From an uncultured Oscillospiraceae bacterium (GTDB taxonomy: Bacteria; Bacillota; Clostridia; Oscillospirales; Oscillospiraceae), in contig CANRFC010000017.1 in NCBI GenBank assembly GCA_947629795.1, positions 1 to 54,662 of the forward strand: a DNA stretch of 54,662 bases. The letters are read 5' to 3'. Shown piece after piece: positions 313 through 53,121 of this stretch (its first letter is position 1; each line of letters begins with the position of its first letter). A model generated the notes under the pieces. The model made no database searches and was not told the DNA's origin. It saw only the letters and a program-made list of their open reading frames with translations. Position numbers and translations under genes: made by a program.

Positions 313-342
313 TTGTAGATGTTCCCTCCCCTGTGGTATAAT
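313..342 (+). promoter_or_regulatory. Sigma-A promoter of the GTPase-NYN gene
   Basis: A -35 TTGTAG (313-318) and a perfect -10 TATAAT (337-342) are separated by 18 bp. They lie just upstream of an AAAGGAGG ribosome-binding site and the ATG at 373, which gives a short 5' leader. Confidence 0.75.
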
Positions 343-372: not shown

Positions 373-3003
373 ATGGATGACCTGACCCTGGGCATCCTGG
401 CCCACGTGGACGCGGGGAAGACCACCCTGTCCGAAGCACTGCTCTACACCGCCGGCGCTGTGCGGAAGCTGGGGCGGGTGGACCACGCCGACGCCTTTCT
501 GGACACCGACGCCCTGGAGAAGGAGCGGGGCATCACCATCTTCGCCAAGCAGGCGGTGCTGGAGACCGGAGATGTGCGCGTTACCCTCCTGGACACCCCC
601 GGCCACGCCGACTTTTCCGCCGAGGCCCAGCGGACCCTGGGGGTGCTGGACGCCGCCGTGCTGGTCATCTCCGCCCCCGACGGGGTGCGCAGCCACACCC
701 TGTCCCTGTGGCGGCTGCTCCGGCGCGCCGGGGTGCCCACCCTCCTCTTCCTCAACAAGCTGGACCAGCCCGGCGTGGACCCCGCCGCCCTGGAGGAGGC
801 CCTTCAGAGCCGGCTCAGTCCCGCCTGCCTTTCCTGGGCCGGCATCTGCTCCGGCGCCGCCGCCGAGGAGGCCGCCCTCACCGATGAGGACGCCATGGAG
901 GAGTACCTGTCCGCCGGGGCCCTCTCACAGAACACCCTCCGCCGGCTCTTCGCCCAGGGCAGGCTCTTCCCCTGTTTCTACGGCTCCGCCCTGAAGCTGG
1001 AGGGGGTGAAGGAGCTCCTCTCCGCCCTGCCGGAGCTCCTGCCCCGGCCCGTCTGGGGCGGGGAGTTCGCCGCCAAGGTCTTCAAGATCAGCCGGGACCA
1101 GGGCCAGCGGCTCACCCACCTGCGCATCACCGGGGGCGCCCTCCGGGTGAAGGACGTGGTGAACGGGGAGAAGGCCGACCAGCTCCGCATCTACTCCGGC
1201 GCCAAATTCACCGCCCCGGAGGCGGTGAGCGCCGGCACGGTGTGTGCCGTCACCGGTCTTTCCTCCACCTACCCCGGTCAGGCCCTGGGGGCCCAGGAGC
1301 CCTGGGCCGGGGCCATCGACCAGCCGCCCCTGGCCTATCAGCTCTTTCTTCCCCGGGAGGTGGACCCCCACGCCGCCCTTCCCAGGCTCCTGGAGCTGGG
1401 GGAGGAGGACCCTCAGCTGGACCTGGGCTGGGACAGCCGCCTGGGGGGCATCCAGGTCCGGCTCATGGGAGAGGTCCAGGCCGAGATCCTCCAGCGGCTC
1501 ATCCTAGATCGCTTCGGCTGGGCGGTGACCTTCGGCCCCGGCCGGGTGGTCTACCGGGAGACCATCGCCGCCCCGGTGGAAGGGGTGGGCCACTTCGAGC
1601 CCCTGCGGCACTACGCCGAGGTCCACCTGCTGCTGGAGCCCCTGCCCCCGGGCTCGGGGGTGGAGCTGGCCACCGTCTGCCCCACCGACCAGCTGGCGGT
1701 GAACTGGCAGCGGCTCATCCTCACCCACCTGGCCGAAAAGCCCCACCTGGGGGTCCTCACCGGCTCCCCCATCACCGACGTCCGCATCACCCTCCTCTCG
1801 GGCAAGGCCCACGAAAAGCACACCGAGGGGGGCGACTTCCGCCAGGCCACCTACCGGGCGGTGCGCCAGGGCCTCATGGGGGCCCGGAGCGTCCTGCTGG
1901 AGCCCTGGTACGCCTTTCGCCTGGAGCTCCCCGCCGGGCAGTTGGGCCGGGCCCTGGGCGACCTCCAGCGCATGGGGGGCGAGACCGACGCCCCCCAGAC
2001 CCTGGGGGAGGAGGCCGTCCTCACCGGCTTCGCCCCGGTCTCCGGCCTGCGGGACTACGCCGCCGAGGTGGCGGCCTACACCAGGGGCCAGGGCCGCCTG
2101 AGCTGCGAGAGCGCCGGCTGCCGCCCCTGTGCCGACCAGGAAAAGATCGTCTCCGAACTGGGCTACGACCCGGAGCGGGATGTGGACAACCCCGCCGGGT
2201 CCATTTTCTGTTCCCACGGCGCGGGCCACGAGGTGCCCTGGGATGAGGTCCCCCGGTGCGCCCATCTGCCCATGCTGGCGTCCCAAAACCGGGGGGAAGA
2301 GACGGCAAAAGCACCCCCATCGGGCCCCCAAAAAGGCCCCTCAGCCCCCCTTCCCGGGGGCCTGGAGCAGGACAAGGAGCTGCTGGACATCTTCCAGCGG
2401 ACCTACGGCGCCGTGAAGCCCCGCTCCTTCGATCCCGCCCCCAAGCCCCGGCGGACCTCCCTGTCCGACGGCCCGGTGGCGCTCAGAGAGACCGCCGCCT
2501 CGGGACCGGAGTACCTCCTGGTGGACGGGTACAACATCCTCTTCGCCTGGCCCGAGCTCAAGGCCCTGGCCCAGGAGAACCTGGACGCCGCCCGGAAGGC
2601 CCTGATGGACCTGCTCTCCAACTACCAGGGCTTTCGGAAAAACCGGGTCATCCTGGTCTTTGACGCCTACAAGGTCCCCCAGGGCACCGGCTCGGTGGTG
2701 AAGTATCACAACATCCACGTGGTCTACACTAAGGAGGCCGAGACCGCCGACAGCTATATCGAAAAGGCCAGCTATCAGCTCTCCAAAGAGAAGAACCGGG
2801 TGCGGGTGGCCACCTCCGACGCCGCCGAGCAGTTCATCATCCTGGGCCACGGGGCGCTGCGGGTCTCGGCCCAGGAGCTCTGGGAGGAGCTGAGCCAGAC
2901 CCGGGGGGAGATCGATGCCATCCTCCGGCGCAACAACCTGAAGCTCCCCGACGCCCAGGTCCGCTCCGCCTTCGAGCGGGCCAGGGAGAAAGGGAGAAAA
3001 TAA
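373..3003 (+). CDS. TetM/EF-G-like ribosomal GTPase with C-terminal Rae1/YacP-like NYN nuclease domain
   Basis: The 876-residue protein combines two ribosome-directed modules. The N-terminal part is a translation-factor GTPase of the TetM/TetO/EF-G type: P-loop AHVDAGKTT (about residues 10-18), RGITI switch I, DTPGHADF (74-81, with His78 at the catalytic position) and NKLD (128-131). EF-G-like domains II-V follow. A linker contains clustered cysteines (SCESAGCRPC and FCSHGAGHEVPW). Residues from about 713 onward match the NYN/PIN-like YacP (Rae1) fold, starting EYLLVDGYNILFAW with acidic Asp718 and Asn721. The ATG at 373 is chosen because it has an AAAGGAGG site at good spacing; the frame is open further upstream to 319 without one. 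TetM-like proteins release antibiotic or stalled complexes from the A site and Rae1 cleaves mRNA in the A site. The combined role is inferred. A tetracycline-resistance function cannot be assumed. Confidence 0.9.
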   Translation: MDDLTLGILAHVDAGKTTLSEALLYTAGAVRKLGRVDHADAFLDTDALEKERGITIFAKQAVLETGDVRVTLLDTPGHADFSAEAQRTLGVLDAAVLVISAPDGVRSHTLSLWRLLRRAGVPTLLFLNKLDQPGVDPAALEEALQSRLSPACLSWAGICSGAAAEEAALTDEDAMEEYLSAGALSQNTLRRLFAQGRLFPCFYGSALKLEGVKELLSALPELLPRPVWGGEFAAKVFKISRDQGQRLTHLRITGGALRVKDVVNGEKADQLRIYSGAKFTAPEAVSAGTVCAVTGLSSTYPGQALGAQEPWAGAIDQPPLAYQLFLPREVDPHAALPRLLELGEEDPQLDLGWDSRLGGIQVRLMGEVQAEILQRLILDRFGWAVTFGPGRVVYRETIAAPVEGVGHFEPLRHYAEVHLLLEPLPPGSGVELATVCPTDQLAVNWQRLILTHLAEKPHLGVLTGSPITDVRITLLSGKAHEKHTEGGDFRQATYRAVRQGLMGARSVLLEPWYAFRLELPAGQLGRALGDLQRMGGETDAPQTLGEEAVLTGFAPVSGLRDYAAEVAAYTRGQGRLSCESAGCRPCADQEKIVSELGYDPERDVDNPAGSIFCSHGAGHEVPWDEVPRCAHLPMLASQNRGEETAKAPPSGPQKGPSAPLPGGLEQDKELLDIFQRTYGAVKPRSFDPAPKPRRTSLSDGPVALRETAASGPEYLLVDGYNILFAWPELKALAQENLDAARKALMDLLSNYQGFRKNRVILVFDAYKVPQGTGSVVKYHNIHVVYTKEAETADSYIEKASYQLSKEKNRVRVATSDAAEQFIILGHGALRVSAQELWEELSQTRGEIDAILRRNNLKLPDAQVRSAFERAREKGRK

Positions 3004-37072: not shown

Positions 37073-38203
37073 ATGGACTATGATTTTACAAGTGTGCTGT
37101 CCAGAAAGGATACCGGCTCAGCAAAATGGAACAATATGTACGCCCATTCCCCACATGTCCCCGAGGGGGTGATTCCCCTTTCTCTGGCTGATATGGAGCT
37201 GAAAAATCCGCCCCAGATCGCGGAGGGCGTGGGCGCCTATTTGAGATCCATGAATCTGGGCTATACCAAGCCGACAGAACGCTTTTACCAGGCGATCATG
37301 GACTGGCAGAAACGAAGGAATGGCTGGAATGTCCGGCCGGAATGGATCGTGGATTATCCCGGCGTGATCCCGGCCCTGTTTCATTTGATCCGATTCCTCA
37401 CGGAACCGGGAGACGGGGTCATTCTCATGACGCCGGTATACTATCCCTTTTACGAAGCGGTCCGCAGCTGTGGAAGGTCGCTGGTGGAAAGCGAACTGCT
37501 CTATCAAAATGGCGCGTACACCATTGATTTCGATGACCTGGAGAAAAAGGCCAAAGGACCCCGTAACAAGGTCCTTCTGCTGTGCAGCCCCCACAACCCG
37601 GTGGGACGTCTCTGGACTCGTGATGAATTGGAGCGGATCGGAGATATTTGCCTGAAACACGGCGTCCGCATTGTTTCAGATGAGATCCATTCTGACCTCG
37701 TTCTCTCATCGCGCAGGCATATTCCGATCGCCTCTCTGTCTGACAAGCTGGCCGGGATCACGATAACCTGCAATGCGCCCAGTAAAACCTTCAACCTGGC
37801 TGGTTTTATCACCTCGTATCTCATCATACCTGACGCTGAAGTAAGAGACATGGTGCTCACCCGCCGCCGGCAGGAGGCTGTTTTCAACTGCAATCTTGCC
37901 GGATATCGGGCTTTGGAAATTGCCTATCAGGAGTGCGAGGACTGGCTGGAAGAACTGCTTGTCCTTCTGCGGCGGAACAAACAGCTGGTCACAGACTTCC
38001 TGGCGGAAAATATCCCTCAGATCAAGCCGGTTGAATTGGAAGCGACCTATCTCATGTGGCTGGATTGCAGCGGGCTCGGACTGTCAGGCAAAGAACTGGA
38101 TGACTTTATGCAGGACGAGGCGTATTGGTTTACCGATGGCGGCTCGATTTTCGGCGCATGCGGACAGACCTTTCAGCGGATCAATATGCAGACGGCAAGG
38201 TAG
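37073..38203 (+). CDS. PLP-dependent MalY/PatB-type C-S beta-lyase, C-terminally truncated
   Basis: A 376-residue fold-type I aminotransferase-like enzyme of the MalY/PatB (cystathionine/cysteine-conjugate beta-lyase) group. It begins YDFTSVLSRKDTGSAKWN, as PatB does, and has SLADMELKNPP, VVDYPGVIPAL-like GVIPALFHLI, CSPHNPVGRLW, VSDEIHSDL and the cofactor lysine Lys238 in NAPSKTFNLAG. Known relatives cleave C-S bonds to give a thiol, pyruvate and ammonia. The C-terminus breaks off after QTFQRINMQ, where homologs continue for about 25-30 residues. From there the DNA belongs to an adhesin gene, so this copy is truncated. ATG 37073 is chosen; TTG 37067 is nearer the GGGAGG site. Confidence 0.85.
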   Translation: MDYDFTSVLSRKDTGSAKWNNMYAHSPHVPEGVIPLSLADMELKNPPQIAEGVGAYLRSMNLGYTKPTERFYQAIMDWQKRRNGWNVRPEWIVDYPGVIPALFHLIRFLTEPGDGVILMTPVYYPFYEAVRSCGRSLVESELLYQNGAYTIDFDDLEKKAKGPRNKVLLLCSPHNPVGRLWTRDELERIGDICLKHGVRIVSDEIHSDLVLSSRRHIPIASLSDKLAGITITCNAPSKTFNLAGFITSYLIIPDAEVRDMVLTRRRQEAVFNCNLAGYRALEIAYQECEDWLEELLVLLRRNKQLVTDFLAENIPQIKPVELEATYLMWLDCSGLGLSGKELDDFMQDEAYWFTDGGSIFGACGQTFQRINMQTAR

Positions 38204-38205
38204 TG
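38175..38205. other. Junction of lyase 3' end with adhesin gene interior
   Basis: Within about 30 bases two unrelated coding sequences meet: the lyase ends out of register with its family after QRIN, and a SpaA-type adhesin frame begins mid-domain at DGKVVDAAGG. Neither gene is whole. No integrase, attachment site or insertion-sequence end is visible, so this is a recombination scar or an assembly chimera. Confidence 0.75.
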
Positions 38206-39525
38206 GACGCGGCAGGCGGCAAGCTGTCCTCCAATGGCCTGTACTGGACCAATTCGGAGGGTCAGATCATCCTGTCCGGTATCACAGGCACTGTCATCGT
38301 GACTGAGGTGGAAAGCATCCCGGGGTTCACGATTGACCCCAACACCCAGAGCCAGACGGTTGTTATCAACCCGGATGATACCCAGCACCTCTATTTCTAT
38401 AACTCGCCTCGAAGCGGCGTCTTGATCCACAAAGTCGATTCGGTCACCGGCCGCGGAATCCCCTCGGTCACATTTTTGGTCTACGATGGGAAGATGAACC
38501 CCGTTGATCAGGTGACCACCGACCAGAACGGATACGCCTATATCGAGAATCTGGGTTTCTCAGGCAAGCTCTACCTGCGTGAGCTGGAGGTTAAGGGCTA
38601 TGTGCTGGACACCGCATTGAAAACCGTGTATGTGAAGGCGGGCGAAACCGTTGAGGTCACATGGGAAAACACCCCCATCACCGGTCAGATTCAGATTTGG
38701 AAAAAGTCTGCGGACGACAACGCGATCAATGGGTTCCCTGCCGGTACGCCGCTGGAGGGCGCTGTTTTTGAGATCTACGACAAATCCAATCGTCTGGTAG
38801 ATACCGTCAAGAGCAACAGCCGGGGCCTGGCCGTGTCCAAACAGCTCCCCTTGGGCCGCTATACGGTAAAAGAGGTGACCAGTCCGGCATTTTACAGCCC
38901 TGCCGCCGAGACGACCACAGTTTATCTGGAGCATGAGGGCCAGATTGTGCAGATCGAGGTTTTGAACAAGAGCGTCTACACCCATGTATCTGTGCAGAAG
39001 AGCGGCTATACTCAGGTAGTCCCTGGCCAGTCTATCCGGTACACCTTCAAGGAGATCGGCAACAACTCCACGGTGCCGCTGGACAACTTCTTCTGGCGCG
39101 ATACGCTGCCCACCGATGCGGTGCGTCTGGACAAGATCACTACTGGCACATGGTCGGCTAAGCTGACCTACAAAGTGGTCTTCCGCACCAACATCAATAG
39201 TAACTATCGCACACTGGCGGACAATCTGGATACCCAGCGCAGCTATACTCTGGATGCCTCGCCTGCGGCCCTGGGTTTGGCCAGCAACGAGTATGTCACT
39301 GAAGTGATGTGCCTGTTTGGGCGGGTGCCTGCGGGCTTTAAGCAGGCGCAGACCCCGTATATCTACTGCAATGTCCTTCCGAGCCTTACCCATGAGTACC
39401 GGTTTACCAACAAGACTGATGTTGGCGGTACTTGGCAAGGACAGTGGATCATGGCCAACGACCGGTGGGTGACCATCGTCTACAAGGGCGGTCCCACCCC
39501 CACGCTGCCCAGAACGGGCTATTGA
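38191..39525 (+). pseudogene. SpaA/Cna-type surface adhesin, 5'-truncated fragment
   Basis: This is the 3' part (about 444 codons) of an ICE-type SpaA-like adhesin. Three Cna-B/SpaA-type beta units can be seen: VLIHKVDSVTGRGIPSVTFLVYD, IQIWKKSADDNAINGFPAGTPLEGAVFEIYD and VSVQKSGYTQVVPGQSI (only their lead motifs are given), each with the Lys and Glu (e.g. LRELEV, TVKEVT) used for isopeptide bonds. There is no start codon or ribosome site of its own: the frame is continuous from inside the lyase gene. The C-terminus is TPTLPRTGY followed directly by the stop. It has the LPxTG-like motif but not the hydrophobic segment and basic tail needed by sortase. Confidence 0.8.
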
Positions 39526-39543
39526 TTTCAAACACGCACAGTT

Positions 39544-39573
39544 GGGCAGGGCGGCTACATAGCCGCCCTGCCC
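39544..39573 (+). other. Perfect 13-bp intercistronic stem-loop
   Basis: GGGCAGGGCGGCT pairs without mismatch with AGCCGCCCTGCCC around an ACAT loop, between the adhesin and the VirB6-like gene. No T run follows, so it looks more like an mRNA-stabilising element than a terminator. Confidence 0.85.
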
Positions 39574-39593
39574 GGCACATGAGGTAATGTTCA

Positions 39594-41732
39594 ATGTTAG
39601 ATTGGATTTTTGAAGGTGCAGCAAACTGGGTGGCCAGTATCATGACTCAGATCATGGACGCCGTTTCGGGCCTGTTTCTGGAGGCACTCGGGACGGACAT
39701 GACGGCCATGGAGGAGTATTTCCCCTTTGCCGTCAGTGCCTACACCGTGGTGCAATACATGGCATGGGCGTTGCTGTTCCTGATTGTGGCATGGCAGCTG
39801 TTTCGAGCATTTGGCGGGCCGCTCACCGAAGCGGAAAGCCCTCTGCAGCTGCTGGCCCGCGGCGGAATCTTCGCCATCCTGATTACATACGCAAAACCGA
39901 TCTTCAGCCTTTTGCTGGATATTGCCCGCGCCCCCTATACCGCCCTGATGGACGCATCCATGACGCCAAGCAATTTTACCTTCGCCGGTATCCAGCAGAC
40001 TTTGAGTAATGGGCTGACCACCATCGTATCAGTTGCCACCGTTGTGGGCCTGATCCTGCTCATCATTCTGATGATCGCTCTGGCCTGGAACTACTTCAAG
40101 CTCCTGCTGGAGACGGTGGAGCGCTATGTATTGGTGGGCGTTCTCTGCTATACCTCGCCGCTGGCCTATGCCATGGGCGCGTCCAAGGCGACTTCCCGAG
40201 TCTTTCAGTCCTGGTGTCGGATGGTGGGATCCCAGCTGTTGCTGCTGGTTCTCAATGTCTGGTTTCTGCGGGCATTCGATTCCTCGGTAGGCCAGTTCGT
40301 TGCCAATGGCGGCGCATTGACCTCCGGGCAGGGCAGTATCTTCCTGTGGTTATTCTGCGCCTTGGCGCTTCTGAAGATTGCCCAGAAGTGTGACAGTTAT
40401 CTGGCTGCCTTGGGCCTCTCCGTCGCGCAGACCGGCAGCAGCATGGGCATTGAGATGCTGATGGCCGCCCGCGTACTCACCGGTTTTTCCAAAGGCGGCG
40501 GGAGTGCCGCGTCTATGTTCGGCGGTACGGGCAAAGCCAGCTCTGCCGCGGGAGGTGCAGCTGCTACGGCTGCGGGCGGCGGCATAGGCGGGTTCTTCTC
40601 CGGCTTTGCCAGCCGATATAAGCCAAACAGCTTTGTCCGCGATGCTGTGGTCGATGGCGGCTCCCGCATGGGCGCCGGCGGCAGCGTCGGATTTGTGGGC
40701 CGTACTTTCGGTGGCATGGCCGCACGCAACGGCGCGACCCTGACGGCAGAGTCCGTGTCCTCGGTGGCCAGCCGCCCGCCCAAGGTCTCCGGCACCATTG
40801 CCGGCGAGATCGCAGACCGCAGTCTGCCGGGCTATATGCCGCAGTTTGCCAACGGATCGGCGGGCAGCATAAAGTATTCCGACACGCAGATCACCGGCGG
40901 GCATATCAGCACTAAGGCCGTAGGCCCAGACGGGAAGCAGGCCAATGTAGAGCTGTTCAGCGCAGCCCAATACGAGCGACCGGACAGTCCATACAAACAG
41001 GTACAGGCCGCAGACGGCAGCATGTGGTACCAGATGGCCTCCGGCGAGGGAATGGGCGCATTTTATGCCGCACCGAACTTTACCGGTGATCCCTCTGAGG
41101 CATCCCAGGTATCTGCTGCATTTCCAAGCGCACCGCAGGATACGATGCTTCGCACGGTGGACGAAGGTACAATGGAGGCCAGCTACCCGGATGGCAGCAA
41201 TGCCCTGTGGTACAGCAGCGCTTTTTATCAGGAGCCGGATGCACCCCATGAGATCATGCAGGGTTCTGATGGCCTGAGCTGGTATGCCATGACACCCCAG
41301 GCATCGCCTCCCCAGTTTGAAGCAGGCGATGCGGCTGCGCCCTTCAATCAGGCGCAGTTCCATCAGTTTATGCCCGGTTTCGGACAGGAGATCACTACGG
41401 TGGACGCCTCCCGCGTCGATGACGGCGTACTGGAGGTACGCCATGCGGATGGGTCTGGGACTGCATTCTACGACCGTACCCGGTATCAGCCCCCCAGAGG
41501 CGATTACCATGTCTATGAAGACAGCAGCGGCAGTCAGTGGTATGCAATCCCCGGTGTGGCCTCTGTGGAGCGCCGGCCGGTCTATCAGGACGGCAAGCCC
41601 GTCTATGATGGGGACTCTCTGCGGACAGTCAATGTGGAGTCCGTCCGCTATCCTTCCACCCCCAGCAAGTTTGCCCCCACACCTAAGCAGCGGCAGGCCA
41701 ATGACCGCAAGCCGCCGAAACGCAAAAACTGA
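39594..41732 (+). CDS. VirB6/TrbL-like conjugation channel protein with C-terminal repeats
   Basis: A 712-residue polytopic protein of a type IV secretion system. Residues 1-265 hold about six hydrophobic segments with the TrbL/VirB6 pattern (WALLFLIVAWQLFRAFGG, LILLIILMIALAWNYFKLLLETVERYVLVG is the central pair). A Gly/Ala-rich linker (about 290-340) follows. The hydrophilic C-terminal half has three repeats of about 85-95 residues, each with a Y-x-x-P segment and a DGS-x-WY or SGSQWY motif (about 460-690). These have no function I can name. The protein would form the inner-membrane part of the mating channel, with the tail probably inside or outside as an adaptor. It is followed by another perfect stem-loop. 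Confidence 0.85.
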   Translation: MLDWIFEGAANWVASIMTQIMDAVSGLFLEALGTDMTAMEEYFPFAVSAYTVVQYMAWALLFLIVAWQLFRAFGGPLTEAESPLQLLARGGIFAILITYAKPIFSLLLDIARAPYTALMDASMTPSNFTFAGIQQTLSNGLTTIVSVATVVGLILLIILMIALAWNYFKLLLETVERYVLVGVLCYTSPLAYAMGASKATSRVFQSWCRMVGSQLLLLVLNVWFLRAFDSSVGQFVANGGALTSGQGSIFLWLFCALALLKIAQKCDSYLAALGLSVAQTGSSMGIEMLMAARVLTGFSKGGGSAASMFGGTGKASSAAGGAAATAAGGGIGGFFSGFASRYKPNSFVRDAVVDGGSRMGAGGSVGFVGRTFGGMAARNGATLTAESVSSVASRPPKVSGTIAGEIADRSLPGYMPQFANGSAGSIKYSDTQITGGHISTKAVGPDGKQANVELFSAAQYERPDSPYKQVQAADGSMWYQMASGEGMGAFYAAPNFTGDPSEASQVSAAFPSAPQDTMLRTVDEGTMEASYPDGSNALWYSSAFYQEPDAPHEIMQGSDGLSWYAMTPQASPPQFEAGDAAAPFNQAQFHQFMPGFGQEITTVDASRVDDGVLEVRHADGSGTAFYDRTRYQPPRGDYHVYEDSSGSQWYAIPGVASVERRPVYQDGKPVYDGDSLRTVNVESVRYPSTPSKFAPTPKQRQANDRKPPKRKN

Positions 41733-41738
41733 TCAACG

Positions 41739-41766
41739 GCCCGCACATCTCAACCGATGTGCGGGC
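41739..41766 (+). other. Perfect 11-bp intercistronic stem-loop
   Basis: GCCCGCACATC pairs exactly with GATGTGCGGGC around TCAACC, seven bases after the VirB6-like stop and before the next ribosome site. It lacks a T tail. Confidence 0.85.
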
Positions 41767-41795
41767 TGTCCAATTTCTATAAAGGAGGTGGCTCT

Positions 41796-43298
41796 ATGTC
41801 CGATGAACAGCAGCGTTTTGGTGATGGTCAGGACGATTATCTGAAGGGTGCGCGAAAGGCAGCGGAAGCCGCCAGAAAAGCGGGGACAGCCTCTGCAAAG
41901 GCCGCAGGAGCCGCAGCTGGTGAGGCAACTGCAAATGCGGCAGCCGCTACCGTACAGGCCGGTGTGCAGGGCGGCAAGGCTGCGGCTGAAATTGCAACTG
42001 GCACTGCAGCAGGCGGCCCATGGGGTGCGATATTATCGGCAGCCTGGTCCTTGCGGCATACGCTCTTTAAGATTTTGATCTTCATCTGCCTGTTTTTGCT
42101 TTTGATTATCGTAGGCGTTGTGTCGCTGCCCTCTATCGTGTTCAACAATATCTTCCATACCGATCCAAGCAGTGTGGATCCCAATGCGCCAACGAGCGTT
42201 ACCGCCAGCTTCGATGATGCGTCCGGCGTAGTGTCCGACTGCATCCAGAACGGTTACGATATGGCGCTGGCCCGGGTAGAGCAGATCATCACTGAGGGCG
42301 GCTATGACTATGACCTATCCATGGACGCTCTGGTCAACAATGGCCTGATCTCCACCGATTACGATACCTGTTATACGCTGGCGGCCTACTCAGCCTCCAT
42401 GCAGCAGCGCGGCACTACCAAGGCGGATATGAAGGCCAAACTGGATGCAGTTGCCGGACAAATGTTTGCTGTTACCTATGAAGTGAAGGAAACAACAAAA
42501 ACTGTGCAGCCGGAGGTTGCAGAGGGTGAGGAACCGGGTGAGCCGGAGGAAGTCATTGTTCAGTATGTGGTCTGTACCATCCACCCCTTTGACCAGTCAG
42601 TGATCTTAACGGCTTTCGGCATCGACACCTCTGCCCAGTATGACCAGTTTGGCATCACCTACGGTGAGGCTATCATCAACATGTCCAACGCTTTGAAGAT
42701 GACCATGTACGGAACCTTATCCAACGGCTCGGTACCGCCCATCACCGATGCGGAGCTGAATGCCTTTTTGAACAGCCTGACCTGCAGCGGTACACGGAAG
42801 GAACTGATGCGCGCCGCCCTGTCCCTGGTAGGCCGTGTCCCGTATTTCTGGGGCGGCAAGAGCGCTCCCGGCTGGAATGAGGCATGGAACACGCCCAGAT
42901 TGGTGACCTCAGCAGGCTCCAGCAGCACCGGTACCATCCGGCCCTATGGGCTTGACTGCTCCGGATTTACGCAGTGGGTCTATCAGACCGCGCTGGGCGT
43001 GACCCTGTATGACGGGACATGGAATCAGTGGGATGCGACCTTTGCTATCACCGAGGACGAGCTGCTGCCTGGTGATCTGGGATTTATGGCGGCGCCGGGA
43101 ACGGTGCCTGTCAACCATGTGTTGCTCTACGCTGGGAAGGACGCCGACGGAAAGCAGCTGTGGGTCCACTGCACCAGCGGTTCAGGCGTGGTACTGAACT
43201 CACCGACCTATGTGACCCAGTTCCGCCGAAGGAAAGATATCGACTTGGAAGCAGACTTTATGCCTGCGCCGATAGAACAAGGAGTCAACGATGGCTGA
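41796..43298 (+). CDS. Conjugation-associated NlpC/P60 peptidoglycan hydrolase (VirB1-like)
   Basis: A 500-residue protein that probably opens the wall for the transfer channel. Residues 15-80 are an Ala/Gly/Lys-rich cytoplasmic region. One transmembrane helix follows (about 90-115, ILIFICLFLLLIIVGVVSL), then a helical linker. The C-terminal NlpC/P60 domain has the catalytic Cys388 (YGLDCSGF), His441 (VNHVLLYAG) and a further polar His458 (LWVHC). The start at 41796 follows AAAGGAGG; the frame extends upstream into the hairpin. It overlaps the next gene by eight bases. Confidence 0.88.
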   Translation: MSDEQQRFGDGQDDYLKGARKAAEAARKAGTASAKAAGAAAGEATANAAAATVQAGVQGGKAAAEIATGTAAGGPWGAILSAAWSLRHTLFKILIFICLFLLLIIVGVVSLPSIVFNNIFHTDPSSVDPNAPTSVTASFDDASGVVSDCIQNGYDMALARVEQIITEGGYDYDLSMDALVNNGLISTDYDTCYTLAAYSASMQQRGTTKADMKAKLDAVAGQMFAVTYEVKETTKTVQPEVAEGEEPGEPEEVIVQYVVCTIHPFDQSVILTAFGIDTSAQYDQFGITYGEAIINMSNALKMTMYGTLSNGSVPPITDAELNAFLNSLTCSGTRKELMRAALSLVGRVPYFWGGKSAPGWNEAWNTPRLVTSAGSSSTGTIRPYGLDCSGFTQWVYQTALGVTLYDGTWNQWDATFAITEDELLPGDLGFMAAPGTVPVNHVLLYAGKDADGKQLWVHCTSGSGVVLNSPTYVTQFRRRKDIDLEADFMPAPIEQGVNDG

Positions 43299-43737
43299 GG
43301 ACAGAGAATATACCAACATTTACACGATACCACCCAACTACACCGATTCCGGCAAGCTGCTGGGCGGTATGCTGGAAACACGCAATACCGTGGAAGCAGG
43401 TATCCTGCTTGTTTTAGTGGGCTACCCGGAGCTGATGTGGCTCCACCTACCGGTGACGGCCAAGGTGGTTGTCATGACTATAACCCTGCTGCCGCTTGGC
43501 GTCTTTGCCCTGATGGGCCTGGGCGGCGACTCACTGCTCCAGTATGTTTCGCACATGATCCTTTTCCTGGTGCGGCGACGGCAGCTTCACTATAGGAGGA
43601 TCGGATATCATTATGGCACAAACACGAAAAAGAACCGCCCACCCAAGAGGCAAGCGGGTAAGCCCACCGTCAAAGGAAAAGCTGGAGTTCGTTCAGGACT
43701 TCATTCCACTCAAAGAGATCAAAAACGGCATCATTGA
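43291..43737 (+). CDS. PrgI family membrane protein of the conjugation machinery
   Basis: A 148-residue protein. YTIPPNYTDSGKLLGGMLETRNTVEAG (lead motif IPPNYTDSGKLLGG) and two transmembrane helices (about residues 37-75, LVLVGYPELMWL and ITLLPLGVFALMGLG) are typical of the PrgI/VirB3-like family that sits next to VirB4. The C-terminus is very basic (KKNRPPKRQAGKPTVKGKA). Its last 125 bases overlap the 5' end of virB4 in another frame, so the basic tail is coded on DNA that also codes the VirB4 N-terminus. Confidence 0.82.
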   Translation: MAEDREYTNIYTIPPNYTDSGKLLGGMLETRNTVEAGILLVLVGYPELMWLHLPVTAKVVVMTITLLPLGVFALMGLGGDSLLQYVSHMILFLVRRRQLHYRRIGYHYGTNTKKNRPPKRQAGKPTVKGKAGVRSGLHSTQRDQKRHH

Positions 43738-46198
43738 GACGACGGATGGGCGGTTCATCAAAATCTTGGAGATCGAGCCAATCAACTTTCTGCTCCGGTC
43801 AGATGAAGAGCAGTGGGGAATCATCTCCACCTTTGCCAGCTGGCTGAAAATATCCCCTATGCGCCTTCAATTCAAATCCATCACCCGGAAGGCGGACTCC
43901 GACCAGTATGTGGCCGGCCTTCAGGCGGATTTGGAGCAGGAGGATGTGGAGGCCTGCCGCAAACTTGGCGAAGGCACCATCCAGTTCATTCGGGAGGAAG
44001 GCAGCCGAGAGGCGTTGTCCCGCCGGTTTTTCTTAATCTTTCAGTATGAGGCCCCCTCCGGGCGGCGGCAGATGGATCCCGACTATGGCGAGATCTACTC
44101 TGCCCTTCAGGTAGTGACCCAGAATGCCCGCACCTATTTCGCCCAATGCGGCAATAACATCGTGCAGCCCAAGGACGAAGATGCCTTTGCAGCGGAAGTG
44201 CTGTATATGTATTTCAACCGCCGATCCTGTGTTAATGATCCCTTTCAAGACCGCCTGAACCGAGTAGTAGTGGATGCTATGGCCGCAAAGAAACGCATTG
44301 TAGGCATTGATCCTGTACCTCATATTCGGGCGGCCAACTTCATTGCACCGCGGGGCCTTGATTTGACCCACCCCGGCTACCTGATTATGGACGGCACCTA
44401 CTACACCTACCTATACATCCGAAAAAACGGCTTTCCCCAGACGGTTCGAGGTGGCTGGATGTCGGCGCTCATCAACGCTGGCGAGGGTGTGGACATCGAC
44501 CTGCACCTGCGCCGGGAAATCCGGGGCAAGACCATTGACCGGGTTGCCCAGCGGATCCGGCTCAACCGCACCAAGCTGCGGGAATTGCAAGACACCTCCA
44601 CCGACTATGAGGAGCTGGCCGGTTCTATCCAAGCCGGCTATTACATCAAGCAGGGCCTGTCCAGCCGGAATGAGGATTTGTTCTACATGTCGGTGTTCAT
44701 CACCCTGTCCGCCGCCAGCTATGAGGAGCTGCAGTGGCGCAAGCAGCAGATGACCGACCTGATGAAGTCCATGGACATCCAGGTCGCGGACTGCATGTTC
44801 CAGCAGGAAGCTGCCCTGCGCTCTACCATGCCCTTCCTCTACATGGATGCCAGTCTGGAGCGCAAGTCAAAGCGCAATGTGCTCACCAGCGGTGCAGCCT
44901 CCACCTACATGTTTACCAGCTTCGAGCTGTCCGATGACAACGGCATCCTGCTTGGCCTCAACCGCCACAACAACTCGCTGTGCATCGTGGATCCGTTTAA
45001 CACCAAGGTGAACAAGAACGCCAACTTCACCATCTGCGGCACCTCCGGGGCGGGCAAGACCTACACCATGCAGGTCATGGCCCTGCGGATGCGAATGCGG
45101 GGCATCCAGTGCTTTATCTTGGCGCCCCTGAAAGGTCATGAGTTCAAACGGGCCTGCCATAAGGTGGGCGGTGCCTACATCAAGCTGGCCCCCGGCTCCA
45201 CCGCCTGTATCAATGTCATGGAGATTCGTCCTACCCTTACGCCGGAGATGGAATTGATCGATGAGTTGGATTATAGCGACATCGACTCTATGCTCGCACG
45301 GAAAATACAGCAGCTGATGATCTTCTTCTCTTTGCTGATCCCTGACATGAGCAATGAGGAGGAGCAGATGCTGGACGAGGCGCTGATCAAAACCTACTCC
45401 CAATTTGGCATCACCCATGATAACGCCTCGCTCTATACCGATGCCAACCGGACAGCCATGAAGACCATGCCCATCTTGGGCGACCTCTACGAAAACCTGA
45501 AGGAGAATCCTTTGACCACCCGATTGGCCACCATCGTCAGTCGGTTCGTCACCGGCAGCGCCCAGAGCTTTAACCGGCAGACCAATGTGGATCTGAGCAA
45601 CAAGTACATTGTGTTGGATATTTCCGAACTGAAGGGCAAGCTGCTGCCGGTAGGCATGATGATCGCCCTGGACTATGTATGGGATCAGGTAAAGGCCGAC
45701 CGCACCAAGCGAAAAATGGTGTTCATTGACGAGATCTGGAAGCTGATCGGCGGTGCCGCCAACAAGCAGGCGGCTGAGTTCTGCTTGGAGATTTTCAAGA
45801 TCATCCGCGGCTATGGCGGCGGGGCATTGGCCGCCACCCAGGATTTGTCCGACTTTTTTGGGCTGGAGGACGGCCGCTATGGACGGGCGATCCTCAACAA
45901 CAGCAAGACCAAGATCATCCTCAATCTGGAGCCGGACGAAGCCGAGTATGTCAAGGATGTCCTCAAGCTGACCCGCACCGAGATCCGCAGCATCACCCAG
46001 TTTGAGCGCGGCGAGGCGCTGATCTCCAGCAACAGCAATAAGGTCCCGGTGGTCATCAAAGCATCCAAGGAAGAGCAGCAGATGATCACCACCGACCGGG
46101 CCGAACTTGAGGCCATGCTGGCGGAAATGCAGGCCGTGGCCAATCTGGCCGAGCAGAGCTGTATCCCCGCTGACGAGGTGGATACGGAAAACGCATAA
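43613..46198 (+). CDS. VirB4/TraE-family conjugation ATPase
   Basis: An 861-residue ATPase that powers the type IV secretion channel. The N-terminal VirB4 domain (about residues 30-420) precedes the RecA-like motor with Walker A GTSGAGKTYT (Lys482, Thr483) and Walker B KMVFIDEIWK (Asp706, Glu707). ATQDLSDFF and NSKTKIILNLEPDEAEYV follow, as expected of the family. The start at 43613 has a TAGGAGGA site 12 bases upstream and lies inside the prgI-like gene; a later start would remove family residues. Length is normal. Confidence 0.93.
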   Translation: MAQTRKRTAHPRGKRVSPPSKEKLEFVQDFIPLKEIKNGIIETTDGRFIKILEIEPINFLLRSDEEQWGIISTFASWLKISPMRLQFKSITRKADSDQYVAGLQADLEQEDVEACRKLGEGTIQFIREEGSREALSRRFFLIFQYEAPSGRRQMDPDYGEIYSALQVVTQNARTYFAQCGNNIVQPKDEDAFAAEVLYMYFNRRSCVNDPFQDRLNRVVVDAMAAKKRIVGIDPVPHIRAANFIAPRGLDLTHPGYLIMDGTYYTYLYIRKNGFPQTVRGGWMSALINAGEGVDIDLHLRREIRGKTIDRVAQRIRLNRTKLRELQDTSTDYEELAGSIQAGYYIKQGLSSRNEDLFYMSVFITLSAASYEELQWRKQQMTDLMKSMDIQVADCMFQQEAALRSTMPFLYMDASLERKSKRNVLTSGAASTYMFTSFELSDDNGILLGLNRHNNSLCIVDPFNTKVNKNANFTICGTSGAGKTYTMQVMALRMRMRGIQCFILAPLKGHEFKRACHKVGGAYIKLAPGSTACINVMEIRPTLTPEMELIDELDYSDIDSMLARKIQQLMIFFSLLIPDMSNEEEQMLDEALIKTYSQFGITHDNASLYTDANRTAMKTMPILGDLYENLKENPLTTRLATIVSRFVTGSAQSFNRQTNVDLSNKYIVLDISELKGKLLPVGMMIALDYVWDQVKADRTKRKMVFIDEIWKLIGGAANKQAAEFCLEIFKIIRGYGGGALAATQDLSDFFGLEDGRYGRAILNNSKTKIILNLEPDEAEYVKDVLKLTRTEIRSITQFERGEALISSNSNKVPVVIKASKEEQQMITTDRAELEAMLAEMQAVANLAEQSCIPADEVDTENA

Positions 46199-46250
46199 AT
46201 CACTCAGACACGCATTTATCCCACTATACGCACAAAAGCGAGGTGAACCT

Positions 46251-46790
46251 ATGTTATTGCAGGAAGAACAGTACATCATCCACTGGCTGACGCAGTACGG
46301 GGCGCTGACCAAGGCGCAGGTGGTCCGGCTGCTGAAGGACAAATCTCCACAGACCGCTGAGAAGATCATCCGTGGACTCAAGCGAGAGCTGATGATCCAC
46401 GACATTGCCGGCGGCTATTATCTTGGCGTCGATCCCATGTGCCAGCCGGAGCAGCGAATCATTTTAGCGGTGTGGGTGCTGCTCCAGTTCATTGACCATG
46501 TGGAGCCGATGGCCCATTATCCGGCTACCTATCCCTCACAGATTTTCTTTCTCAAAGAGGATATGGGCTATGAGATCGTGGTGCTCTACGACGGAGAGCA
46601 GCATTTGGCTCGGCTGCTCCAGCCTCAGGAGGATCTGCGGTATATCTTTGTGCTGCCTAAGATTTCCATGGCACAGGAACTGGTGCTCCCCAATGTGCCT
46701 TGCCTGTTTGCCACGGTGGACTACAACGGTCAGGAAGTGCCGGATGTACGATTCTATACGGAAGGAGGAGAAACGGATGGGGCAGTCTGA
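46251..46790 (+). CDS. ICE-associated winged-helix protein (DUF5697-like)
   Basis: A 179-residue protein of a family (DUF5697-like) seen in clostridial conjugative elements. The N-terminus (about residues 5-55) reads as a winged helix-turn-helix: IIHWLTQYGALTKAQVVRLL followed by AEKIIRGLKRELMI. The rest is mixed alpha/beta with an IFFLKEDMGYEIVVLYDGE strand region. A role in regulation or as a transfer accessory is a guess. The start at 46251 follows GCGAGGTGA, and its end overlaps the next gene by 14 bases. Confidence 0.7.
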   Translation: MLLQEEQYIIHWLTQYGALTKAQVVRLLKDKSPQTAEKIIRGLKRELMIHDIAGGYYLGVDPMCQPEQRIILAVWVLLQFIDHVEPMAHYPATYPSQIFFLKEDMGYEIVVLYDGEQHLARLLQPQEDLRYIFVLPKISMAQELVLPNVPCLFATVDYNGQEVPDVRFYTEGGETDGAV

Positions 46791-47457
46791 TTTTCTTCGC
46801 AGCATCGCATCAGCGAAAGACCGCCTGCGGCGTGCCGAGATAGAACTGATACGCACAAAAGAGCTGGCGCTTCAAAACGACATGGCAGGCGCCTTTGGAA
46901 CGGCCTTTGCCTTTGAGGCTGAGGTGGAAAAGCTGGCTCTGCTGGCCAGAAGCATTCCGGCCTATACAGGGCATCCCCTGGCACAGGAAAAAATGGACGC
47001 TGTTTTGCAGGCTGCATTCCCAATAGAGATGGGCTACACGCAGGAAGGCTGGTTCTGCCTGCGGATCCCCGCGCTCCTCCCCAAAAAAGGGAACGGCTCC
47101 CCGGTCTACATCCAGCAGGTACTCTACCCAGCTATGGGACGGTTCTTTCAAGGAAAGGTGCCGGCCAGCTACTCCGACTGCGTGCTGATCTACCGCCATG
47201 TTTATGACAGCACCCGCCCGGAGCGGGCTTGGCGCGACCACGACAACATCGAGCAGAATATGGTAACGGATATCATCACCCTCTACCTGCTACCCGATGA
47301 CGCTCCCGCCCGGTGCGCACACTTCTATTGCAGCGCCGCCGGACCGGCAGACTGCACGGAGGTCTATGTGGTACCCCTGGAGCAGTTTTCCTCTTGGATC
47401 TATGCCGCATTTCACGATGGATTGAAGGAGGTGACGCTCTATGAAAACCGGGCATAA
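46777..47457 (+). CDS. ICE-associated protein (DUF6100-like)
   Basis: A 226-residue protein of unknown function that accompanies the previous gene in clostridial ICEs (DUF6100-like). The N-terminal 50 residues form a charged helix (LRSIASAKDRLRRAEIELIR). The middle contains YTQEGWFCLRIPALLPKKG, and the C-terminal half has alternating strands with a conserved-looking LIYRHVYDSTRPERAWRDHD (motif core HVYDSTRPERAWRDHD). There is no membrane segment. The ATG at 46777 follows GAAGGAGGAG. Confidence 0.68.
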   Translation: MGQSDFLRSIASAKDRLRRAEIELIRTKELALQNDMAGAFGTAFAFEAEVEKLALLARSIPAYTGHPLAQEKMDAVLQAAFPIEMGYTQEGWFCLRIPALLPKKGNGSPVYIQQVLYPAMGRFFQGKVPASYSDCVLIYRHVYDSTRPERAWRDHDNIEQNMVTDIITLYLLPDDAPARCAHFYCSAAGPADCTEVYVVPLEQFSSWIYAAFHDGLKEVTLYENRA

Positions 47458-47635
47458 GGTTGGGAAAAAGGTAAGTATGAAAGGCCGAAATTTTCCGCCG
47501 TCCAATCACCTACAGTTCAAACACCGGAAAATCCCTGAAAAACCAAGGGGCCGGCGCCATGATGAAGGGCCGGATTGCGGCAAAGAGAGGATGAGAGATG
47601 CCGCAAATCAGGATGAGGCGGAGGTCCAGAAATGA
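47441..47635 (+). CDS. Small basic ICE protein, doubtful
   Basis: A 64-residue highly basic ORF (MKTGHKVGKKVSMKGRNF start) with no recognised family. It overlaps the preceding gene by 17 bases and the following one by four (ATGA), and has AAGGAGGTGA ten bases before its ATG. The coupling geometry suggests it is translated, at least to re-initiate the next gene. Confidence 0.45.
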   Translation: MKTGHKVGKKVSMKGRNFPPSNHLQFKHRKIPEKPRGRRHDEGPDCGKERMRDAANQDEAEVQK

Positions 47636-48786
47636 TCACACTCCGCCCGGGCAGTCATGCGTATCGCCTCCTGCTGCTCCTGTCTGCTGCCGGCGAATTT
47701 CCAACACGCTCACTGCACCTGTTGGGCAGTGTCCGCACTCTGGGAGCGCTGGTGCATCGGCTGGAGCAGACCCAACGCTTCCGCACTGAGGATGGGACGG
47801 ACCTTGGCTGCTGCAGAATGCTTTCCGTCAGTGGAAAGCGGGACAAACGCACCATCCGTCTTTACAAAAACGCGCTCCCACTCCTGCAGGCTCTCCACCC
47901 GGCAGCCCTGGAGCAATACCTCACACTTTCAGGCGGGCATCGGTTCTCCGGCAGTGACGCCCACATACAGCGCAACCACCGAGTGGCGGAAACACTGGCG
48001 GTATGCCTGGAAGCCGGCATTGAGTTTCGACCCTATATCCTACCGGCCTTGCAGAAACAGCGCATCGCCCAAATCGTGCCTGCGTCACCCGCATTCTATA
48101 TCGCTCGGTCGTTGAAGCGCTTGGATAGTACGGAGATGAACAAGACTATCTTCACCCGCTTAACCGGAGCGTTGTTTGCTTATGAGACCTGCTGGGCTGT
48201 TTACAATACCCGCGGAGCCGTCATGAAATGGAGCGGAATGGGCGAGTTCAAAACTGCGCAGCACCTTGCGGAGCTGGCCCGGATGAACGCCGGCCTCCCG
48301 CGGGCAGACCATGCGCTGCTCCTGGGTGAAAGTATGGATGTTGCATTGCGCACCATGGAGGAGTCGGATAAAAGCCGGCGCATGGAACTGCGTTTTGACC
48401 GCATCTACCCGCATGTCCATTTCGTCCCGCTGAACCCGCAAGGAATCCGGCTGCTGAAGATCCTGACGCGCTCAGACTGGAACGAACAAATACTCTCGGC
48501 GGTATTCCCGCCGGAGTGGCGCGCCATCGGCCCTGGCATTCTGGAGCACGACGCTCAACGGGAGGGAACCTTCATCCTCTCCTATCTGGACGGAGACCTG
48601 GCACGACTCCTGCGCCTGCGACAAGCATTAGAGCACAGCGACGCCCCCTGTGAGGTGGTGTGTTTCCCTTGGCAAACGGGATTTGTTCGGGCGTATCTTG
48701 GCGACCGTGTGACTCTGCGGGAAATAGACATGGATGCACTGGAAACGGCCTTGGATTTAGCAGAGCCGGAAGATGGGGAGCCATGA
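47632..48786 (+). CDS. Conserved ICE protein of unknown function with winged-helix-like N-terminus
   Basis: A 384-residue cytoplasmic protein I cannot name. The first 55 residues (YRLLLLLSAAGEFPTRSL then LGALVHRLEQTQRF) look like a winged helix. The middle has helices rich in Arg and Leu, and FDRIYPHVHFVPLNPQGI starts a C-terminal alpha/beta region of about 120 residues. It resembles, in layout only, replication-relaxation-type proteins of clostridial plasmids and ICEs. It starts in the ATGA overlap of the small ORF and is followed by the coupling protein. Confidence 0.65.
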   Translation: MITLRPGSHAYRLLLLLSAAGEFPTRSLHLLGSVRTLGALVHRLEQTQRFRTEDGTDLGCCRMLSVSGKRDKRTIRLYKNALPLLQALHPAALEQYLTLSGGHRFSGSDAHIQRNHRVAETLAVCLEAGIEFRPYILPALQKQRIAQIVPASPAFYIARSLKRLDSTEMNKTIFTRLTGALFAYETCWAVYNTRGAVMKWSGMGEFKTAQHLAELARMNAGLPRADHALLLGESMDVALRTMEESDKSRRMELRFDRIYPHVHFVPLNPQGIRLLKILTRSDWNEQILSAVFPPEWRAIGPGILEHDAQREGTFILSYLDGDLARLLRLRQALEHSDAPCEVVCFPWQTGFVRAYLGDRVTLREIDMDALETALDLAEPEDGEP

Positions 48787-48800
48787 GAGGAGGTTTTGCC

Positions 48801-50714
48801 TTGAGAAATAGCCGTACCCGCACCATCGCCATTGCCATTGCCGTCATACTGGGATTGGCCGCACTGCTCTACTTGGGCGGATTGGTCTGCCAGTTGCTGA
48901 CTGAGTATCAAATCTGGCTGGCCAGCGGCGGTATGCAGGGACAGTCCCAAATCGGTGACATCCAGTTCGGACCGTTTGCGTGCTGGCGCCATGCGCTCAC
49001 GCTATCCGGCTTGAGATACACCGGCTTGGTGCTTCTGATAGGCGGCAGCATCTATGCCTTTGTCCGGCTCTATGATCGGTTTGGGAGCCGTGACTTCGAT
49101 GACCGCAACTTTGCACGCAGCCAGCGTGGTACCTATGGTACCGCAGGGTGGATGGATGAGAAAGAACTGCGCGCTGTTTTGGAGGTGGCCAGCCCGCAAA
49201 AAGCCAAAGGCATCATACTGGGCCAGAACGACCGAGGCAGCGTGATCTGCCTGCCGGAGGATACCAGGCTCAACAAGCACATTGCGGTGTTCGGCGCCAG
49301 CGGGACCATGAAGTCCAGAGGCGTTATCCGTCCAGCACTGTTTCAAAGCATCCGGCGCGGAGAGTCGGTGGTGGTCACAGACCCAAAATCCGAAATCTAC
49401 TCCGATACAGTGGAGCTATTCCGAAAACACGGCTACACCGTCCGCGTGTACAATCTGCTCCAGCCCGAACTGAGCGATTCTTGGAACTGTATGTTCGACT
49501 TGGGTGGTGATACCCTGATGGCCCAAGTGCTGACCGATGTCATCATCGCCAATACGAAAGGGGACGGTAAAGGGGATCATTTCTGGGACAACGGAGAAGC
49601 CAACCTGCTCAAAAGCCTGATCCTTTATGTGGATCTGGACTCTACCCGCCGCCCGGAAGAGCGCAATCTGCCTGCTGTTTACCAAATGCTGACCCAGAAC
49701 TCGGAAAAGCAGCTCACCGCCCTTTTCGACCGTCTGCCCTTGGACCACCCGGCCCGGGCGCCGTACAGCCTGTTCAGCCAGGCCAGTGATACGGTGCGGG
49801 CCGGTATTGTTTTGGGGCTGGGTACCCGATTACAGGTACTCCAAAGCGAAGCGGTCCGGCGCATCACCCGCCAGTCCGACATTGACCTTGCCCTTCCCGG
49901 GCAGACCAAATGCGTATATTACATCATCCTGGACGACCAGAACTCCTCCCTTGAGTTTCTGTCGTCCCTTTTCTTTGCTTTTCTTTTCATTAAACTCGTC
50001 CGCTATGCAGACAGCACGCCGGAGCAACGATGCAAAATCCCTGTCAACATCATCCTTGAGGAGGCAAATAACATCGGCGTGATTCCGGATTTTTCGAGGC
50101 GGCTCAGTACCATCAGGTCGAGGGCCCTCCAAGTTCTATTGTGCTGTCAAAACCTTCCGCAAATTCAAAACAGATACCCCGATAACCTATGGGCCGAACT
50201 GATCGGCAATGCGGATACCCAGCTGATGCTGGGCTGTACCGACGATGTGACGGCGGAGTATTTCAGCGCCCGAAGCGGAGACATGACGGTGGAGGTCAAT
50301 TCCACCATGACGACCCGGCAGAGCATCGCCATCGCCCAGATTATCCCCCAGTACCGATATACGGAAGGCCTTGGCCGGCGCCGTCTGCTCACCCCCGATG
50401 AGGTGCTTCGTCTGCCCAACGACCAGCTGCTGATCGTCATCCGCGGTCAGAAGGTGCTGCGGGCAAAGAAGTTTGATTATACCGGCCATCCTTACGCCAA
50501 GGAATGCGTCAAGGCCAGTATTCGGGATTATCCCTCTATCCAGCATGGATCCGGTGTATCGCAAGAATCTGCGCCCCAGCCACCGGAAGCGGAGCAGGAA
50601 TCCGTCTGTACGGAAACAGTGGAAAGCTCTCCGCCCCCGACAGTGCCACCACCAAAGCCCGCCAAGCGTAGGCCGGTTCTTTACGAAAGCGCAAAACCGC
50701 CTACAGACTTCTGA
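48801..50714 (+). CDS. VirD4/TraG-type coupling protein (T4CP)
   Basis: A 637-residue membrane ATPase that links the relaxosome to the VirB channel. Two N-terminal transmembrane helices (about residues 9-33 and 68-88) precede the motor domain. Walker A is GASGTMKSRG (Lys171), followed by VVTDPKSEIYSDT, a TraG hallmark, and Walker B-like VNIILEEANNIGVIPDF. The C-terminus is Pro-rich. TTG at 48801 is chosen because AGGAGG stands seven bases upstream. An ATG at 48783 in the same frame, overlapping the previous stop as ATGA, is the alternative and would add six residues. Confidence 0.92.
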   Translation: MRNSRTRTIAIAIAVILGLAALLYLGGLVCQLLTEYQIWLASGGMQGQSQIGDIQFGPFACWRHALTLSGLRYTGLVLLIGGSIYAFVRLYDRFGSRDFDDRNFARSQRGTYGTAGWMDEKELRAVLEVASPQKAKGIILGQNDRGSVICLPEDTRLNKHIAVFGASGTMKSRGVIRPALFQSIRRGESVVVTDPKSEIYSDTVELFRKHGYTVRVYNLLQPELSDSWNCMFDLGGDTLMAQVLTDVIIANTKGDGKGDHFWDNGEANLLKSLILYVDLDSTRRPEERNLPAVYQMLTQNSEKQLTALFDRLPLDHPARAPYSLFSQASDTVRAGIVLGLGTRLQVLQSEAVRRITRQSDIDLALPGQTKCVYYIILDDQNSSLEFLSSLFFAFLFIKLVRYADSTPEQRCKIPVNIILEEANNIGVIPDFSRRLSTIRSRALQVLLCCQNLPQIQNRYPDNLWAELIGNADTQLMLGCTDDVTAEYFSARSGDMTVEVNSTMTTRQSIAIAQIIPQYRYTEGLGRRRLLTPDEVLRLPNDQLLIVIRGQKVLRAKKFDYTGHPYAKECVKASIRDYPSIQHGSGVSQESAPQPPEAEQESVCTETVESSPPPTVPPPKPAKRRPVLYESAKPPTDF

Positions 50715-50753
50715 CCTATACCATTTCGTCAATCATAAAGGAGGAAACAAACC

Positions 50754-52199: not shown

Positions 52200-52212
52200 G
52201 GAGGTAAAAAAG

Positions 52213-52746
52213 ATGAATCGGAAATCTCGCTTTTCTCTCATGCTGGTACTGGTTTTGGCTTTGTCTCTGGCCATGAGTACCGTTGCTTTCGCAGACACTG
52301 ACGGTACCGAGCCGAAAATTACCCAGCAGCCCGATCAGCTGGTTCTGCAACTCGGTGCCCGCTGGGCGGGAGTGGAGTTTGAACTGCGCACCGATGCCGG
52401 CATCTTCCCCATGCCGGTCGTGGTGGACGAGTCAGGTGTTCTGCGCATGGACCTGGGCGGCAGCACCACTTATACGCTCAGCTGTTTGAACTCTACAGTC
52501 CCGATTCCGGACCCGACTGTCACCACGGATCCGGATGATCAGCCGCAGCCCAACCCGACAGTGCCCGAGCAGAACGATCCGATCCCATCCCAACCTCAGC
52601 CGCAGAAAACCGCGCTACCGCTGCCGGCCATTATTTTCTTCGTCGGTTTGGCCGCCGCAGTGGCCGGTTTGGTTATGCTCCGTATCTCCAAACAGCGCCG
52701 CGAAGCCGCCTATGAGGAGTGGGATGATGACGAAGACGAGCCGTGA
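52213..52746 (+). CDS. Secreted, C-terminally membrane-anchored ICE protein
   Basis: A 177-residue exported protein with signal peptide MNRKSRFSLMLVLVLALSLA (cleavage near AFA-DT, about residue 28). It continues with a beta-type domain of about 75 residues (DQLVLQLGARWAGVEF), a Pro/Gln-rich stalk (about 105-130) and a C-terminal transmembrane helix (about 140-160, PAIIFFVGLAAAVAGLVML) ending in a basic then acidic tail. ALPLP before the helix is not a sortase motif. GAGGAGG lies close before the ATG. The function is unknown; such proteins close the transfer operon in related elements. Confidence 0.75.
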   Translation: MNRKSRFSLMLVLVLALSLAMSTVAFADTDGTEPKITQQPDQLVLQLGARWAGVEFELRTDAGIFPMPVVVDESGVLRMDLGGSTTYTLSCLNSTVPIPDPTVTTDPDDQPQPNPTVPEQNDPIPSQPQPQKTALPLPAIIFFVGLAAAVAGLVMLRISKQRREAAYEEWDDDEDEP

Positions 52747-52819
52747 AACTGACTTTGTTTTCCTATACTGACTTTGGCACTAAAAGTATGAATAAACCGT
52801 GTATTTTCAAGGCTTTTCG

Positions 52820-52848
52820 TTGACTTTCAAGGCGATTTATGGTAATAT
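52820..52848 (+). promoter_or_regulatory. Promoter of the structured RNA / DUF3268-gene transcript
   Basis: TTGACT (52820-52825), a 17-bp spacer and TAATAT (52843-52848) stand immediately upstream of the structured region. The transcript would start around 52855, at the base of its closing stem. The 52747-52819 stretch is AT-rich with no other signal. Confidence 0.78.
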
Positions 52849-52857
52849 TTATTTGTA

Positions 52858-53099: not shown

Positions 53100-53121
53100 C
53101 GTTTTTCAGGAGGTTTTGATT

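Follow-up and report, generated by a model that had tools for sequence, protein, structure and literature searches.

Our analysis of a contig from an uncultured Oscillospiraceae bacterium (CANRFC010000017.1, assembly GCA_947629795.1; its whole stretch of 54,662 nucleotides is hereafter the window) centers on a gene that encodes a translational GTPase of the EF-G type fused to a Rae1-like NYN domain. The gene is one open frame on the forward strand (319/373-3003), and its product from the ATG at 373 has 876 amino acids; this ATG is the likely start codon because AGGAGGT precedes it at 361-367 and relatives share the same start position. Within this single polypeptide, Pfam profiles recognize GTP_EFTU (E-value 1.3e-47), EFG_IV (1.2e-17), EFG_C (1.9e-13) and NYN_YacP (2.8e-50), and the AlphaFold model has high confidence in both the GTPase and the NYN module. 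This bears out a sequence-only reading of the gene, which had claimed a TetM/EF-G-type GTPase and a Rae1/YacP-like NYN domain in one protein. Among solved structures, residues 1-590 are closest in sequence to TetO, TetM and EF-G, and residues 714-864 to YacP (5mq8, 5mq9). Our data confirm that the fusion is neither an assembly artefact nor a chance event, since both modules lie in one open reading frame in 25 long-frame loci (out of 40 fetched regions, the other 15 being separate rae1 genes) as well as in 76 of the 80 loci that carry names. Among the named loci, one exception stops at a contig end (L139), two have no NYN domain (L171, from a Bifidobacterium-labelled metagenome-assembled genome (MAG), and L172, from Collinsella tanakaei), and L175 (6084-8640) carries the GTPase (672 amino acids) and the NYN domain (197 amino acids) in two overlapping frames, due to a sequencing error, a frameshift or a genuinely split gene.

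The GTPase module shows the domain order and the GTPase motifs of the EF-G-type translational GTPase superfamily. Its G domain (residues 5-224; 385..1044) retains the P-loop, switch and NKxD motifs, with D13, K16, T55, D74, H78, K129 and D131 near or fully invariant in the alignment of relatives, and is followed by EF-G domains IV (residues 390-504; 1540..1884) and V (residues 507-589; 1891..2139) and by a C-terminal extension (residues 575-631; 2095..2265) also present in unfused relatives. The tip of domain IV (residues 479-490; 1807..1842) reads AHEKHTEGGDFR in the fusion against YYSPVSTPADFR in TetM, TetO and TetW, the shared part being DFR only; this tip is a family signature, as H483, T484, G486, G487, D488 and R490 are kept in 104/104 fused and 22/22 unfused records. 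EF-G is also distant, with 27% identity in one alignment, a different tip loop, and neither the extension nor the NYN domain; the window's own genome encodes other EF-G-like proteins as well. In a tree of 65 GTPase sequences, in which, as the program cautioned, EF-G and Tet are connected by long branches, fused and unfused members form one group (support 98/95) apart from TetM/O/W and EF-G. From these sequence comparisons, the GTPase is best described as a subfamily of its own. Nineteen unfused members fall on one side of this group (98/86), and three others, from Collinsella, the Bifidobacterium-labelled MAG and a Ligilactobacillus salivarius plasmid, are nested among the fused ones (86/65 for the fused members plus these three). 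These three copies have likely lost their NYN domain, a conclusion that we grade no higher because forcing all fused GTPases together, at a cost of 31.6 log units, was not rejected (approximately unbiased (AU) test, p 0.085). The Collinsella genome has another NYN_YacP match and the Bifidobacterium-labelled MAG has none. In the tree of NYN domains, 14 of 16 separate sequences form one clade (99/98), the other two (L081 and L091) group with the fused domains, and a fused-only grouping was not rejected (AU p 0.207). A single origin of the fusion is compatible with the trees. The Ligilactobacillus copy (L206 4977-6911), 47.5% identical to the window GTPase and publicly annotated as Tet, lies next to rpsN and an IS3 transposase, and relatives occur on many L. 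salivarius plasmid records.

The NYN domain (residues 715-856; 2515..2940) scores 171 bits with the NYN_YacP profile (PF05991), far above the curated cut-off of 24.6, and the Rae1 kinship that the sequence-only reading had proposed for it holds, with 46% identity to Bacillus subtilis Rae1 over 128 residues. D718, D764, D793 and D816, together with N721, are invariant in 102/102 distinct fusions, three of the acids matching Rae1 acids in the alignment, as does the fourth (TSD); loss of these acids, which the same reading had named as a way for it to fail, is thus not what is found. The likeness to Rae1/YacP of B. subtilis, in domain and acids, does not extend to gene organization. B. subtilis Rae1 is a small stand-alone protein of 170 amino acids encoded in the mrnC-rlmB-rae1-sigH operon, whereas here the domain is the C-terminus of an 876-residue GTPase encoded elsewhere in the genome.

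Both modules are joined by a linker (residues 641-708; 2293..2496) that varies in length among fusions (median 78 residues) and is mostly disordered in the AlphaFold model (pLDDT <50), save for a conserved helix (residues 664-678; 2362..2406) in which E669 is found in 98/102 and I673 in 96/102 distinct fusions. This linker had been described from the sequence as cysteine-rich, a claim that does not stand: judging from the alignments, the invariant cysteines C586 and C613 belong to the C-terminal extension of the GTPase, where they are conserved in 104/104 fused and equally in 22/22 unfused records. C578 occurs in 75/104 fused records, and the unfused residues listed at this position are L, F, A and R.

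The fusion is the single NYN_YacP match of its own genome. NYN_YacP was detected in 172 of 395 genomes drawn at the order level, where five of the matches listed lie in frames shorter than 800 amino acids (G320 and G282, both cut upstream by contig ends, G124, G154 and G372), in 138 of 249 genomes drawn at the phylum level, where 17 have frames of at least 800 amino acids, and in 250 of 393 genomes drawn at the class level. This last sample, also searched with a GTPase profile built from 23 fused sequences (alignment A1; 163/393 genomes matched at E 1e-150), comprises 130 genomes with the fusion, 113 with a separate NYN gene only and seven that interrupted frames or contig ends leave undecided (G437, G545, G560, G572, G619, G643 and G675). 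The 130 consist of 127 genomes that combine NYN with a GTPase frame of 780 amino acids or more, in part of which the long GTPase frame stands for the NYN frame and two of which look damaged (G577 and G464), and of three recognized by their NYN frame (G512, G713 and G584). Separate NYN proteins in the 113 measure 160-251 amino acids, apart from one of 342 (G667), and 22 of these genomes also carry an unfused GTPase gene (651-700 amino acids in the 13 frames listed). Five genomes of the class draw have more than one NYN match; upon re-examination together with three from the order draw, only G665 holds both the fusion and an intact separate gene, and G745 retains short broken pieces. Fusion and separate rae1 are, therefore, near-mutually exclusive, which answers the question raised by the sequence-only reading as to whether fusion genomes lack a separate rae1: among the 130, a single genome has an intact one.

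Separate rae1 has a usual slot: in 14 of the 15 loci fetched, rlmB and sigH flank it and mrnC lies upstream, the distance from rlmB to sigH being 612-723 bases between aligned stretches; L081 is the exception. In 27 fusion genomes, hand-picked for good assembly and spread, rlmB was always located, and sigH was within reach (1.5 kb flank) in 15; in the other 12, sigH was not found beside rlmB and the slot cannot be judged. One of the 15 recognizable slots contains an intact rae1 (G665) and 14 do not. A search for rae1 remnants, covering 12 of these 14 gaps (all but two, which measure just 15-16 bases), retrieved clear rae1-like pieces on the rlmB strand in G745 (E 1.7e-15; L226, contig C56 81209-81444), G416 (1.1e-13; L228) and G507 (8.7e-14; L236), compared with E 0.055 for the best of 120 base-shuffled gaps. 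Weak matches were seen in G679 (2.0e-4, right strand) and G578 (0.018), and the five remaining gaps gave no rae1-like match at 0.05. Matches in G562 (1.7e-4) and G757 (4.6e-4) lie on the wrong strand and are likely due to chance, and the G679 match is unconvincing because they reach similar E-values. In the window's own genome, rlmB is on another contig, with no sigH or mrnC within the 12 kb fetched. In genomes that have the fusion and a slot that can be judged, the separate gene has usually gone, an argument that the NYN part of the fusion does the job of free Rae1.

Upstream of the gene, a possible extended -10 promoter, TGGTATAAT, can be read in the sequence on the forward strand (334..342), although it is absent from the scan's list, and two 71-base direct repeats precede it (112-182 and 213-283; 101 bases apart, with 77% identity). 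Genes flanking the fusion in the window encode DnaD-like and DnaC-like proteins, an SLH protein, ZapA and a U32 peptidase. No consistent operon partner emerged when three neighbours per side were clustered across loci, the largest cluster comprising 20 loci at scattered offsets. Far from the fusion, the window contains conjugative-element genes (38125-53601; SpaA-fold, NlpC/P60, TraG-type ATPase and type IV secretion system coupling protein) and a DUF3268 RNA (Rfam RF02966, 80.4 bits; 52857-52973) directly before a DUF3268 zinc-finger gene (52975-53601). Several copies in other genomes depart from the common arrangement. L081 (7787-8308, genome G595) is a separate NYN gene outside the rlmB operon, with an unfused GTPase gene on another contig, and perhaps represents a fusion that came apart. 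L076 (7773-11951, genome G263) is a frame of 1392 amino acids with ~500 residues ahead of the GTPase, either a further fusion or a misread start. Two faecal contigs labelled 'Bacteriophage sp.' match 95-96% of the fusion protein, with 55% (MT835563.1 5427-7958) and 46% identity (MT835514.1 15276-17759); these copies might be phage cargo, prophage flanks or bacterial contamination.

What could such a protein do? EF-G-type factors place domain IV in the ribosomal A site. We hold, with little more than even confidence, that the fusion is a housekeeping ribosome-directed GTPase carrying the Rae1-type mRNA endonuclease of the cell on a flexible tether, and that it probably acts on paused ribosomes. 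Several lines of evidence lead us to favour this reading: the EF-G fold and sequence of one module, the Rae1 kinship and invariant acids of the other, the exclusion of separate rae1 together with its disappearance from 14 of 15 slots (three with remnants), the unfused GTPase genes found in 22 of the 113 separate-rae1 genomes, and the literature on Rae1, described in passages of PMC6613710, PMC12320835 and PMC10100781 as an A-site endoribonuclease to which stalled ribosomes may give increased access. The EF-G-like module would enter the A site of ribosomes paused with an open A site; upon GTP hydrolysis domain IV would leave, and the tethered NYN domain would cut the mRNA in the vacated site or, alternatively, the mRNA on a neighbouring ribosome, so that the ribosome would be freed for rescue. 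Domain IV and the NYN domain cannot share one A site, and the action would therefore have to be sequential or in trans, which a tether of ~78 residues could allow. The order of events, their trigger and their coupling to GTP are what we infer, and ribosome rescue by mRNA cutting is plausible in this scheme. Some observations weigh against it. Both domains would compete for the same site, there are no conserved neighbours pointing to rescue, at E 1e-150 no family GTPase shows up in 91 of the 113 separate-rae1 genomes, and six GTPase genomes of the class draw have no NYN match, so that neither partner needs the other. More tentatively, and with the balance of probability on the other side, the fusion may reveal the GTPase partner of Rae1, the two being separate in some clostridia and fused in many others, where free rae1 subsequently decayed.

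Other functions can be envisaged. In one unlikely alternative, the fusion would take part in maturing RNA or assembling ribosomes, with the GTPase checking or helping the ribosome and the NYN domain trimming rRNA or tRNA. A role of NYN domains in rRNA and tRNA maturation has been proposed (by Anantharaman and Aravind, cited in a passage of PMC4342817), and separate rae1 shares its locus with mrnC and rlmB, both of which act on rRNA; however, the three papers cited above describe Rae1, in the passages concerned, as a translation-dependent mRNA endonuclease, and domain IV of the GTPase is of the EF-G type. We give still less credit to the idea that the modules were joined just for joint expression or ribosome targeting, with no control of the GTPase over the nuclease: the variable, mostly disordered linker and the occurrence of the modules apart in other genomes would fit it, but conservation of the linker helix speaks against it, as does the persistence of the fusion in 130 of the 250 genomes with NYN in the class sample.

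Equally doubtful is ribosomal protection against tetracycline or another A-site drug combined with cutting of the stalled mRNA. It has a precedent in print: according to Atkinson et al. 2015 (PMC4342817), a YacP-like NYN domain was gained by Tet proteins in ten species of Clostridiales, and these authors propose a mode of resistance in which RNase activity takes part. The tip of Tet proteins is what dislodges tetracycline, according to the same source, and this loop is replaced in our family. In addition, the NCBIfam tet_protect profile, with a cut-off of 775 bits passed by the Tet(M) control with 880, gave 374 bits for the window protein and 381-460 for six unfused members (374-460 for the seven sequences scored); the protection-protein variant put forward in the sequence-only reading is likewise not supported. 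Identity to TetM, TetO and TetW is only ~29-31%, and the C-terminal extension and NYN domain further set the fusion apart from them; in the class sample it is common and present in one copy per fusion genome, and it is rare among plasmid records (24 of 72,556 have an NYN domain, among them two fusions recognized by name, from Monoglobus and Agathobacter). Some public records label relatives as Tet, and one as 'translation factor GTPase family protein'. On present evidence, as far as these comparisons go, the gene should not be classed among the tetracycline-resistance proteins. Finally, that the NYN domain is inactive and merely binds RNA or ribosomes is very improbable: no activity assay of any fusion was found in the literature searched, but the four acids and N721 do not vary among the 102 distinct fusions, and the presence of the fusion goes with loss of separate rae1.

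In that literature, of which the principal papers on Rae1 (Leroy 2017 and Condon 2018) were not part, PMC4342817 was the only listing seen to report the fusion. The architecture described there, an EF-G/Tet-like translational GTPase with a C-terminal YacP-like NYN domain in Clostridiales, corresponds to ours by its text description rather than by sequences, and is therefore already in print, but its spread and what can be learned from it go beyond what that passage conveys. There, the fusions are filed as Tet resistance proteins, whereas here the GTPase forms a subfamily apart, without the Tet tip, and the fusion stands in for rae1. Judging from the genomes sampled, the fusion looks like the established form that Rae1 takes across a large part of the clostridia. 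As a natural fusion that displaces free Rae1, it makes an EF-G-like GTPase a candidate partner for the access of Rae1 to paused ribosomes, and the question of how Rae1 reaches them becomes testable with one protein. Clostridial genes currently named as tetracycline ribosomal protection proteins may, in turn, be housekeeping factors, which would inflate counts of resistance genes.
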